In this document: positions 39,728-61,556 of the stretch, piece after piece
Numbering within the stretch: the stretch's first letter is position 1
Layout of the letters: each line of letters begins with the position of its first letter
From: Streptomyces sp. NBC_01351
GTDB lineage: Bacteria; Actinomycetota; Actinomycetes; Streptomycetales; Streptomycetaceae
DNA: 64,000 nt
Reading direction: 5' to 3'
Assembly (NCBI RefSeq): GCF_036237315.1
Contig: NZ_CP108356.1
Location: forward strand, 2,476,501-2,540,500
Translations under genes and position numbers: made by a program
The notes under the pieces: model-generated
What the model was told of the DNA's origin: nothing
What the model saw: only the letters and a program-made list of their open reading frames with translations
Database searches by the model: none

Positions 39728-39800
39728 TACCCCCGACCGGATTCGAACCGGCGCTACCGCCTTGAGAGGGCGGCGTGCTAGGCCGCTACACAACGGGGGC
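39728..39800 (-). tRNA. tRNA-Glu (CTC), copy 1
   Basis: A 73-base cloverleaf without encoded CCA. The anticodon arm is CCGCC-CTCTCAA-GGCGG with anticodon CTC for GAG codons; the T arm is GCCGG-TTCGAAT-CCGGT. It is last of five tRNA genes on the minus strand and has the same sequence as copies 2 and 3. Confidence 0.95.
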
Positions 39801-39814
39801 TTGCAGATACTGCG

Positions 39815-39886
39815 CTGGGCTACCAGGACTCGAACCTAGAACAAAGGAACCAGAAACCTTCGTGTTGCCAATTACACCATAGCCCA
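39815..39886 (-). tRNA. tRNA-Gln (CTG), copy 1
   Basis: A 72-base cloverleaf. The acceptor pairs are TGGGCTA/TAGCCCA and the anticodon loop is TTCTGGT, giving CTG for CAG codons. A T-T mismatch closes the anticodon stem. A DasR-type palindrome lies 5 bases upstream of its 5' end. Confidence 0.94.
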
Positions 39887-39890
39887 AGGG

Positions 39891-39902
39891 TGGTCTAGAC
39901 CA
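39891..39902. promoter_or_regulatory. DasR-type (dre) palindrome inside the tRNA cluster
   Basis: TGGTCTAGACCA is a perfect 12-bp palindrome identical to the core of the Streptomyces DasR consensus (ACTGGTCTAGACCAGT). The outer bases differ (GG and GA instead of AC and GT). It lies in the spacer between tRNA-Glu copy 2 and tRNA-Gln copy 1. Confidence 0.65.
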
Positions 39903-39910
39903 GACCACAG

Positions 39911-39983
39911 TACCCCCGACCGGATTCGAACCGGCGCTACCGCCTTGAGAGGGCGGCGTGCTAGGCCGCTACACAACGGGGGC
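39911..39983 (-). tRNA. tRNA-Glu (CTC), copy 2
   Basis: Sequence identical to copies 1 and 3 by eye, 73 bases, anticodon CTC. Confidence 0.95.
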
Positions 39984-40044
39984 CCTAGCGATCCTGCATC
40001 AAAACTTCCGGGTGCGACCCTGGAGATCTCGCGGGAAGGATCTG

Positions 40045-40117
40045 TACCCCCGACCGGATTCGAACCGGCGCTACCGCCTTGAGAGGGCGGCGTGCTAGGC
40101 CGCTACACAACGGGGGC
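40045..40117 (-). tRNA. tRNA-Glu (CTC), copy 3
   Basis: Sequence identical to copies 1 and 2 by eye, 73 bases, anticodon CTC. On the transcribed strand it follows tRNA-Gln copy 2. Confidence 0.95.
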
Positions 40118-40144
40118 AAAGCACTGCGTTACTACTGCACTGCG

Positions 40145-40216
40145 CTGGGGTACCAGGACTCGAACCTAGAATAAGGGAACCAGAAACCCTCGTGTTGCCA
40201 ATTACACTATACCCCA
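40145..40216 (-). tRNA. tRNA-Gln (CTG), copy 2
   Basis: A 72-base cloverleaf, the first gene of the cluster on the transcribed strand. It differs from copy 1 by paired changes: acceptor TGGGGTA/TACCCCA and anticodon stem AGGG/CCCT, so both copies keep their folds and the CTG anticodon. Confidence 0.94.
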
Positions 40217-59561: not shown

Positions 59562-61181
59562 CTACTCGGCCGGTTCCACACCCGCGTGGAGGAGGCCGAA
59601 GGTGAAGGCGTCCTCCAGGGCCTGCCAGGATGCCGCGATCACGTTCTCGGCCACGCCGACCGTGTTCCACTCGCGGCTGCCGTCCGTCGTGGAGATCAGC
59701 ACGCGCGTCGTGGACTCCGTGCCGTGCGTGCCCTCCAGGATGCGGACCTTGTAGTCGATCAGCTCGAACTTGGCCAGCTGGGGGTAGAAGCGCTCCAGGG
59801 CGACCCGCAGCGCACGGTCCAGCGCGTTGACCGGGCCGTTGCCCTCCGCCGTGGCGACGATCCGCTCGCCCTTGGCCCACAGCTTGACCGTGGCCTCGTT
59901 GGCGTGGGTGCCGTCCGGGCGGTCCTCGACGATCGCGCGCCAGGACTCGATGCGGAAGTACTTGCGGGCCCGGCCCTCGGCCTCCGCGCGCAGCAGCAGT
60001 TCGAAGGAGGCGTCGGCCGCCTCGTAGGTGTAGCCCTGGAGCTCGCGCTCCTTGACCCGCTCGACGACCCGGGAGATCAGCGCGCGGTCCCCGCCGAGGT
60101 CGACGCCGAGCTCCTTGCCCTTGAGCTCGATGGAGGCCCGACCGGCCATGTCCGAGACCAGCATCCGCATGGTGTTGCCGACCCGCTCGGGGTCGATGTG
60201 CTGGTAGAGGTCCGGGTCGACCTTGATCGCCGAGGCGTGCAGGCCCGCCTTGTGCGCGAAGGCGGAGACGCCGACGTAGGGCTGGTGCGTGGAGGGGGTG
60301 AGGTTGACGACCTCGGCGATGGCGTGCGAGATCCGGGTCATCTCGGCGAGCGCGCCTTCGGGGAGCACCTTGCGCCCGTACTTGATCTCCAGGGCGGCGA
60401 CGACCGGGAAGAGGTTGGCGTTGCCGACGCGCTCGCCGTAGCCGTTCGCCGTGCACTGGACGTGCGTGGCGCCGGCGTCCACGGCGGCCAGGGTGTTGGC
60501 GACGGCGCAGCCGGTGTCGTCCTGGGCGTGGATGCCGAGGCGGGCGCCGGTGTCGGCGAGGACGGTGGCGACGGTCGCGGTCACCTGGGCGGGGAGCATG
60601 CCGCCGTTGGTGTCGCAGAGGATGACGACGTCGGCGCCGGCCTCGTGGGCGGCGCGTACGACGGACTTCGCGTACTCGGCGTTGGCCCGGTAGCCGTCGA
60701 AGAAGTGCTCGCAATCGACGAAGACGCGGCGGCCCTGTGCGACCAGGTGGGAGACGGTGTCGCGGACCATCTCCAGGTTCTCGTCGAGGGTGGTGCGCAG
60801 GGCCAGCTCGACGTGACGGTCGTGCGACTTGGCGACGAGGGTGATGACCGGGGCGCCGGACTCCAGCAGGGCCCGCACCTGCGGGTCCGTGGCGGCCGAG
60901 CCGCCGGCGCGGCGGGTCGCGCCGAAGGCGACGAGCCGGGCGTTCTTGAAGTCGATCTCGGCGCGGGCACGGGCGAAGAACTCCGTGTCGCGCGGGTTGG
61001 CGCCGGGCCAGCCGCCCTCGATGAAGCCCACTCCGAAGTCGTCCAGGTGCCGGGCGATCGTCAGCTTGTCGGCGACGGTGAGGTTGATGCCCTCGCGCTG
61101 GGCGCCGTCTCGCAGGGTGGTGTCGAAGACGTGGAAGCTGTCGTCGAGGACCGCTGCTGCCGCCTCTGGTGTCGTCGTCAT
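59562..61181 (-). CDS. cimA: (R)-citramalate synthase-type protein
   Basis: 539 residues. DSFHVFDTTLRDGAQREGI is the alpha-isopropylmalate/homocitrate synthase family signature, with the HxH metal motif in LGIHAQDDTGCAVAN and a long C-terminal regulatory domain (FELIDYKVRILEGTHGTESTTRVLISTTDG). The length and the GVGFIEGGWPGANPRDTEFF region fit CimA-type proteins, which condense pyruvate with acetyl-CoA for isoleucine synthesis. An attenuator leader with Ile, Val and Leu codons lies upstream, supporting a branched-chain role. Confidence 0.9.
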   Translation of the reverse strand: MTTTPEAAAAVLDDSFHVFDTTLRDGAQREGINLTVADKLTIARHLDDFGVGFIEGGWPGANPRDTEFFARARAEIDFKNARLVAFGATRRAGGSAATDPQVRALLESGAPVITLVAKSHDRHVELALRTTLDENLEMVRDTVSHLVAQGRRVFVDCEHFFDGYRANAEYAKSVVRAAHEAGADVVILCDTNGGMLPAQVTATVATVLADTGARLGIHAQDDTGCAVANTLAAVDAGATHVQCTANGYGERVGNANLFPVVAALEIKYGRKVLPEGALAEMTRISHAIAEVVNLTPSTHQPYVGVSAFAHKAGLHASAIKVDPDLYQHIDPERVGNTMRMLVSDMAGRASIELKGKELGVDLGGDRALISRVVERVKERELQGYTYEAADASFELLLRAEAEGRARKYFRIESWRAIVEDRPDGTHANEATVKLWAKGERIVATAEGNGPVNALDRALRVALERFYPQLAKFELIDYKVRILEGTHGTESTTRVLISTTDGSREWNTVGVAENVIAASWQALEDAFTFGLLHAGVEPAE

Positions 61182-61286
61182 GCTGATCTGACTCCTGTCG
61201 GATGAGTGGTTCCGGAAACCCGGGATCCACTGCCCCCATCATCGCGCGCGTTCACGTCCCGGCAGGGATGAGGCCGGGAAACGAAA

Positions 61287-61312
61287 AAACCTCTCGCGGG
61301 TGCGAGAGGTTT
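61287..61312 (-). terminator. Attenuator terminator in the cimA leader
   Basis: On the minus strand AAACCTCTCGC, ACCC, GCGAGAGGTTT forms a perfect 11-bp stem followed by further U residues (six T in a row counting the stem end). It lies between the leader peptide and cimA, 106-131 bp before the cimA start. Confidence 0.85.
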
Positions 61313-61332
61313 GCGCGCGGGTCTGGGGCACG

Positions 61333-61374
61333 GTGGCCGCTTCCCGCGAAGGTCTTCCACGGTTCAGCGGCCAC
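61333..61374 (-). promoter_or_regulatory. Pause-type (1:2) hairpin overlapping the leader peptide end
   Basis: AGCGGCCAC (61366-61374) and GTGGCCGCT (61333-61341) form a perfect 9-bp stem; the first arm covers the last codons and stop of the leader peptide. In attenuators this hairpin sets ribosome and polymerase timing. A competing pairing CGCGGG/CCCGCG further along could act as antiterminator. Confidence 0.6.
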
Positions 61375-61405
61375 TGAGGACCGGCGCGCTGCTGGCGATA
61401 ATCAT
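61364..61405 (-). CDS. Leader peptide of the cimA attenuator
   Basis: 13 codons, MIIASSAPVLSGR, from ATG 61403-61405. Two consecutive Ile codons and a Val-Leu pair in so short a peptide match the control-codon logic of branched-chain amino acid attenuators. It is followed in order by a stem overlapping its stop, a 20-base spacer, an intrinsic terminator and cimA. No ribosome site is visible, so leaderless translation is possible. The upstream promoter is not clear. Confidence 0.7.
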   Translation of the reverse strand: MIIASSAPVLSGR

Positions 61406-61509
61406 GAGCTGAGCAGGCACGCTCGCAGTGTGCCATAACGCTCGCCGCTGATGGACGGGGATCTCAGCATGCGGGCAGCCGCGCCGCGCGGTCGGGTGCG
61501 GCGCCGTTG

Positions 61510-61556
61510 CGGGGCGCTGCCCCGGACCCTGCGCCTCAAACGCCGGCGAGGCTATT
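61510..61556. repeat. Partial copy of the dispersed repeat at the tetR 3' end
   Basis: GGGGCGCTGCCCCGGACCCT followed by GCGCCTCAAACGCCGGCGAG repeats the words found at 244-263 and in smc. The stop codon of the TetR-family gene (61552-61554) lies at its edge, so the element directly adjoins the coding end. Confidence 0.65.

Follow-up and report, generated by a model that had tools for sequence, protein, structure and literature searches.

A candidate isoleucine-specific transcription attenuator upstream of cimA in Streptomyces and much of its class

In Corynebacterium glutamicum, the ilvBNC leader comprises a leader peptide, adjoining antiterminator and terminator hairpins that share the trinucleotide GCC, and a third, anti-antiterminator hairpin (PMC11857589; here and below, statements about published work refer to the available portion of each text). 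The Mycobacterium tuberculosis ilvB1 leader is described as adopting mutually exclusive folds, such that a ribosome at the stop codon masks the antiterminator and a ribosome stalled at LVVI permits it, and codon replacement abolished induction (PMC13236596). The ilvB-II motif is regarded as a uORF attenuator (PMC10272879; PMC11109978). The ilvL leader is reported to be transcribed leaderless in S. lividans (PMC8079986), and altering the codons of the ilvB leader in S. coelicolor reportedly left regulation unchanged (PMC1262725). The citramalate synthase gene, cimA, is absent from the eight leader peptides of the S. lividans RNA-seq study, as far as the available text of that study goes (PMC8079986), and is not mentioned in the available part of Seliverstov et al. 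2005 (PMC1262725). Premature 3′ ends have been mapped genome-wide in S. clavuligerus, with citramalate unmentioned in the accessible sections of the main text (PMC8269248), and the accessible sections of PMC2965389, PMC12452182 and PMC13158618 hold nothing on an actinobacterial cimA leader. We found no cimA attenuator in the available literature on citramalate and leader attenuation, and a prediction is possible in Lopatovskaya et al. 2010, a paper on attenuation cited in PMC8269248.

Here we describe a putative attenuator upstream of cimA in a 64,000-nt stretch of DNA from Streptomyces sp. NBC_01351 (the window). On the minus strand, the order of elements is a CACACT motif, an ORF starting with GTG, a helix (P1) that encloses a hairpin (P2), a terminator hairpin, a T run and cimA (Table 1). 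The S. coelicolor cimA is presumably SCO5529. Predicted folding of the 229-nt region is better than that of 200/200 dinucleotide shuffles (z = −5.57). A preliminary description of this DNA, made from the sequence, had proposed a leader-peptide attenuator composed of a 13-codon peptide (MIIASSAPVLSGR, then a stop), a stem over the leader stop, an 11-bp terminator hairpin with a T run after it, and cimA beyond. The stem, the hairpin with its T run and the gene are all present, and P1, which is the strongest conserved helix of the region, is absent from that description. A second hairpin, GTGGATCC...GGAACCAC, is predicted at 61206-61230 (minus strand), past the terminator and ahead of the ribosome-binding site of cimA; its sequence is partly conserved in aligned same-genus loci, and it could be a feature of the 5′ mRNA or the marker of a second start. 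Elsewhere in the window, at 39728-40216 (minus strand), lies a row of five tRNA genes, three of which have identical scores.

Table 1. Features of the cimA leader region, in order of transcription (coordinates are positions within the window)
Feature	Position	Strand	Basis
−10-like element CACACT, presumed leader promoter	61427..61432	−	CA[G/C/T]ACT conservation; promoter role presumed
18-codon leader peptide ORF opened by GTG and closed by TGA (61366-61364), MPAQLMIIASSAPVLSGR then stop	61364..61420	−	start conservation, translation
Candidate regulatory codons ATT ATC (Ile-Ile)	61397..61402	−	conservation within genus; synonymous forms elsewhere
P1 5′ arm, GCGCGCCGGTC	61379..61389	−	pairs with 61323-61313; identical in 30 aligned loci
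P2, hairpin within P1 over leader stop (61374-61366/61341-61333)	61333..61374	−	fold
P1 3′ arm, GACCCGCGCGC, last base touching first terminator-stem base	61313..61323	−	fold, geometry
Intrinsic terminator hairpin, 11 bp, AAACCTCTCGC ACCC GCGAGAGGTTT	61287..61312	−	fold; compensated stem variation
Terminator U-tract, first three T also paired in stem	61284..61289	−	sequence
cimA, citramalate synthase, 539 aa, presumed regulated gene	59562..61181	−	TIGR00977 637 bits (cut-off 450); ORF

From sequence comparison, the most probable leader start is GTG 61420, which lies in frame with the ATG chosen in the preliminary description and 15 nt before it. A 279-nt DNA query was matched in 37/37 same-genus genomes searched, and 30 of these 37 loci were aligned. 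The codon at the GTG position is GTG in 28 and ATG in 2 of the 30, whereas the inner ATG is replaced by ACG or GCG in 3. The ORF proposed earlier is present, but its inner ATG was rejected as the start because of these losses. The CACACT motif is separated from the GTG by 6 nt. Across the class, 57 of 109 parsed leaders have CA[G/C/T]ACT ahead of their start, with the same 6-nt spacing in 39 of those 57; a looser −10 pattern fits 101/109, a count that is not independent because start choice made use of that pattern. No match to a TTGACA/TATAAT-type promoter was found at the window's leader. Taken at face value, the sequence suggests that the leader is probably translated from a leaderless mRNA, with transcription beginning at or next to GTG 61420.

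Downstream of the Ile codons, the reading frame of the leader varies among the 30 same-genus loci. Twenty leaders end in RRAGPQ or KRAGPQ, nine have one base fewer and read SAPV..., and one uses the third frame; each of the three frames has its own nearby stop. The Val-Leu pair, to which the preliminary description had assigned a regulatory role, is consequently not conserved and drops out as a sensor for cimA. That GCGCGCCGGTC remains constant despite the shifting frames fits selection on an RNA helix and on a short ORF that has to end there, rather than selection on the peptide tail itself.

The consecutive Ile codons, by contrast with that pair, hold up well. In the same-genus alignment, the first is kept in 30/30 loci, and at the second position 25 loci have Ile and 5 have Met; apart from these five Met codons, no loss of Ile codons or terminator was seen in these close relatives. 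Outside the genus, the pair is most often written ATTATC (28), ATTATT (24) or ATCATT (20), and this occurrence of several synonymous forms indicates that the amino acid is kept, not one DNA word. At least two Ile codons are present in 98/109 parsed leaders. The parser found Ile in 107/109, the two exceptions (L090 and L024) being wrong parses in which Ile is visible by eye, and Ile makes up 241 of 1319 residues across the 107 leaders with Ile. ATT accounts for 146 of the 241 leader Ile codons (109 parsed leaders) in mostly GC-rich genomes, and in such genomes ATC is expected to dominate.

The distribution of the element was assessed with a covariance model (R1) built from 23 loci, 20 of the genus and 3 from other families. 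R1 has matches in 188/394 class genomes and 78/137 genera (E ≤ 0.1). In the same 394 genomes, cimA (E ≤ 1e-100) is found in 310, including 182 of the 188 with an R1 match (it is absent from 6) and 128 of the 206 without; for this comparison, lists of 148 and 270 non-genus genomes were used and the 40 same-genus genomes were compared by eye. Among 76 non-genus loci, hand-picked among the matches listed with repeats of some genera skipped, cimA lies directly downstream in 72 (tblastn). We also inspected 20 cimA upstream regions from unmatched genomes. Six carry an Ile-Ile leader, P1 and a terminator, indicating that R1 undercounts; in the other 14 no Ile-Ile leader was found by script, suggesting that the element is probably not universal. 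This conservation, which extends beyond the genus across much of the class, supports the earlier proposal of a leader-peptide attenuator for cimA. The response, proposed as one to branched-chain aminoacyl-tRNA, narrows to isoleucine for this gene. We regard the assignment to this class of device, a leader-peptide attenuator of cimA specific for isoleucine, as well supported and very probably correct.

Stem covariation had been suggested as a check, and it is evident at the level of the class. Pairs 5-9 of P1 are variable and covary; for pair 6, the two bases can pair in 40 of the 42 different arm pairs, compared to at most 31 in shuffles, although such counts are biased toward pairing because P1 was located by maximising it. 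Single-base shuffles put through the same procedure gave a P1 shuffle rate ≤0.05 in 104/113 loci. Terminator stem pairs likewise show compensated variation, and a terminator lies between leader and gene in 113/115 loci by script, with a hairpin and T run visible by eye in the remaining two (L183 and L184). Within the genus, all 30 aligned loci have the same P1 5′ arm. At its base, P1 has four pairs that read GCGC/GCGC in 111/113 loci, a constancy beyond what pairing alone requires. The loci from which R1 was built have GCGC at the P1 foot and hence the model's hits lean toward this sequence, a detection bias that may contribute to the constancy; six loci found without R1 also show the GCGC foot by eye. 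Several other families lack P2 or have only a small version of it, and it can be considered optional. For this reason, we rejected the stem over the stop codon as the main switch.

Geometry and folding were analyzed in 107 loci, of which 104 precede cimA, two an ACT-like ORF and one an ilvA-like gene. Left out of the 115 were L183 and L184 (no parsed terminator), L068, L093, L119 and L126 (no parsed leader), and L024 and L090 (start wrongly parsed); seven of these eight carry Ile codons by eye, and L119, which precedes ilvB, has Val-Val instead. The window's P1 and terminator stem abut without a spacer and without shared bases. When stem pairs that involve the beginning of the U-tract are included, 92 of the 107 loci have a gap of 0 nt between the two helices, 10 a gap of +1, 3 of −1 and 2 of +3. 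The distance from the first Ile codon of the run to the P1 foot is 11-14 nt in 100/107 loci, and the stop codon lies 0-4 nt before that foot in 49/107 and past it in 58/107. A ribosome covers ∼12-13 nt from the first A-site base to its front edge. The leader, Ile codons, P1, terminator, spacing and conservation can all be read directly from the DNA.

We then folded each RNA with the ribosome masked. With the front edge placed at +13, P1 forms in 105/107 loci when the ribosome is stalled at Ile and in 0/107 when it is at the stop codon; one of the failures, L077, was counted as such owing to misplaced codon choice. P1 forms in 106/107 stalled loci at +10 and at +12, in 87/107 at +15 and in 42/107 at +17. 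Gating of the helix by ribosome position is thus predicted in silico at +10 to +13, is weaker at +15 and is lost at +17. In a related set of 17 leaders with gaps of −1 to +4 nt, P1 exceeds 0.5 in 15 with the ribosome stalled and in none with it at the stop; this set shares L117, L133 and L140 with the 107 loci, and the P1 parser was unsuccessful on L119 and L206.

The best explanation of these data, with a probability of roughly 0.8, is that the element is an isoleucine-specific transcription attenuator of cimA in which P1 would act as antiterminator and isoleucine supply would be the signal. RNA polymerase would begin transcription at GTG 61420 or beside it, with a ribosome engaging the short leader at once. 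With isoleucyl-tRNA plentiful, the ribosome would reach the stop codon and its footprint would lie over the P1 5′ arm; with P1 blocked, the intrinsic terminator would fold and transcription would stop ahead of cimA. When isoleucine is short, the ribosome would stall at Ile-Ile and its front edge would come to rest at the P1 foot, so that P1 could form, termination would be reduced and cimA would be transcribed. With a stable P1 directly under the terminator, the RNA exit channel may have no room for the helix as the final base pairs of the terminator are made. Given the strict geometric gating, and given that only antitermination on stalling is sensible for a biosynthetic gene, we infer that P1 antiterminates by abutment, that is, by lying flush with the terminator without overlap. 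We consider the odds on this step evenly balanced. Coaxial stacking of P1 and the terminator could favour the terminator instead, and five related leaders of ilvB from outside the class, with a gap of 4 nt, run counter to strict abutment.

Under classical attenuation, stalling would instead let an antiterminator form that has bases in common with the terminator, and P1 would merely guide it. This antiterminator could be made of a few basal pairs, the arrangement in C. glutamicum ilvBNC, or could be a pseudoknot or a helix that exists only briefly during transcription. Published attenuators of this pathway are so described, both in C. glutamicum ilvBNC (PMC11857589) and in M. tuberculosis ilvB1 (PMC13236596). 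To look for such an antiterminator, we cut each transcript ahead of the terminator 3′ arm and compared pairing of the 5′ arm with the ribosome stalled versus at the stop. Among E. coli controls, values for the 5′ arm were 0.79 versus 0.02 for trpL and 1.00 versus 0.01 for thrL, and hisL was non-discriminating (0.81 stalled, 0.80 at the stop). Against these, the 5′ arm was held (>0.5) on stalling in 0/107 loci at +10, +12 and +13, considering nested folds only. The earlier attenuator proposal stands, but a base-pair-sharing antiterminator, as the classical sense of the word implies, was sought by ribosome-masked folding and not found at +10 to +13. The 5′ arm was held on stalling in 12/107 loci at +15 and 37/107 at +17, which lends the classical scheme some support, and P1 and the terminator overlap in just 3/107 loci, by one base each. 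With the ribosome at the stop and P1 masked, the 5′ arm was paired upstream in 43/107, the reverse of classical logic. We consider the classical scheme unlikely here. In free RNA, the full terminator forms either way (0.98 stalled, 0.97 at the stop; 107 loci), and P1 and the terminator would then not compete for bases in nested folds. Such compatibility implies that regulation by the attenuator proposed here would need the abutment outlined above or a kinetic effect.

Two other explanations dispense with attenuation by a leader peptide. The hairpins might be a mere terminator for the upstream gene, which has sub-threshold TetR/BetI matches, lies on the same strand and ends at 61552, about 130 nt upstream, with the short ORF a product of chance. 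However, relatives retain the start, the Ile codons and a stop even though they read P1 in different frames, and families across the class retain these features too, making this explanation exceedingly improbable. Hardly more credible is a ligand- or protein-binding leader RNA, such as a riboswitch or T-box, even though the structure is stable and conserved and the GCGC/GCGC foot of P1 is more constant than pairing needs. The conserved single-stranded part of the structure consists of the Ile codons, P2 is absent in several families and the upper part of P1 varies in sequence. At gathering score, Rfam models identified only the window's tRNAs, which lie elsewhere, and one tRNA in 20 related loci, all else being sub-threshold; the T-box covariance model had no match in the window or in those 20 loci.

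Leaders of the same build at other genes serve as a control for the role of the codons, and their sensor codons match the pathway of the gene. Within the class, L119 precedes ilvB (acetolactate synthase) and has Val-Val codons. L140 precedes a threonine-ammonia-lyase-like gene, whose best family matches are below cut-offs, and has one Ile. In L117 and L133, from two genomes of one genus, runs of Ile precede a small ORF with a sub-threshold match to an ACT domain (ACT_4). The window's own genome has a leader of the same build at ilvB, with Ile-Leu-Val-Leu codons; R1 (E ≤ 0.1) finds only the cimA element in this genome and misses the ilvB leader. The encoded peptide is the same as Streptomyces ilvL (MRTRILVLGKRVG, then a stop), and P1 abuts the terminator with a 0-nt gap. 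Because this counterpart has the same build, the S. coelicolor ilvB result noted above counts against our model. A search of the genome for a Trp-leader pattern gave 0 matches. A copy of the terminator precedes an ORF in a genome related to that of the window (L031, genome G012); no leader was recognised there, and a Pfam search of that ORF identified no family.

Of 296 genomes searched in the phylum, R1 matched 29 in all; 17 of these lie outside the class, and 16 of the 17 were examined. Leu-Leu-Leu codons are found in L195 and L203, with leuA directly downstream. Ten leaders with branched-chain codons lie upstream of ilvB (L196-L198, L200-L202, L204-L206 and L208), and all ten ilvB genes were confirmed as members of the acetolactate synthase family. 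In L205 ilvB follows directly, and in the other nine it starts 479-755 nt past the start of the element, so that another reading frame may lie between. L207 has a similar hairpin-terminator and an aminotransferase-like gene, with a leader (MKLTRRSNK, then a stop) that is without a branched-chain run. L199, L209 and L210 look like chance matches. The design may be general in the phylum.

A broader reading is that these leaders represent a distinct kind of Actinomycetota attenuator: a flush hairpin that shares no bases with the terminator, is gated by the front of the ribosome and acts by steric block at the exit channel, as a module in which only the codons have been retuned to serve cimA, an ilvA-like gene, ilvB operons, leuA and an ACT-like gene. 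We offer this reading tentatively, with the odds leaning somewhat against it. The cimA attenuator itself would give the citramalate route, at its committed step, a direct sensor of isoleucine in much of this large class of bacteria. The device would be simple in its RNA design, built from a stop codon, a flush hairpin and a terminator and programmable through its codons, unlike the textbook attenuator. The design predicts how a helix beside a terminator affects termination, and it may help account for the misfit of the Streptomyces ilvB leader with the classical model.

Compared to known systems, the cimA leader resembles Streptomyces ilvL in having a short peptide with branched-chain codons, but ilvL has mixed Ile/Leu/Val codons and serves another gene, and a P1-abutment design is not described for it in the available texts. 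It resembles M. tuberculosis ilvB1 in the roles assigned to ribosomes at the stop and at the sensor codons, whereas gene and codons are different and the folds of ilvB1, unlike those predicted here, are mutually exclusive (PMC13236596). Adjacency of the two hairpins, as in C. glutamicum ilvBNC, is present, but the shared boundary trinucleotide is absent: the cimA-type hairpins touch without sharing in 92/107 loci, and no overlap is larger than the single base seen in three. With E. coli trpL and thrL, the cimA leader has in common the leader codons, the terminator and the logic of ribosome position. The arrangement predicted by folding nevertheless departs both from the classical definition and from C. 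glutamicum base sharing; in trpL and thrL the antiterminator takes the terminator 5′ arm, whereas P1 of the cimA type would leave that arm free and stand flush beside it.
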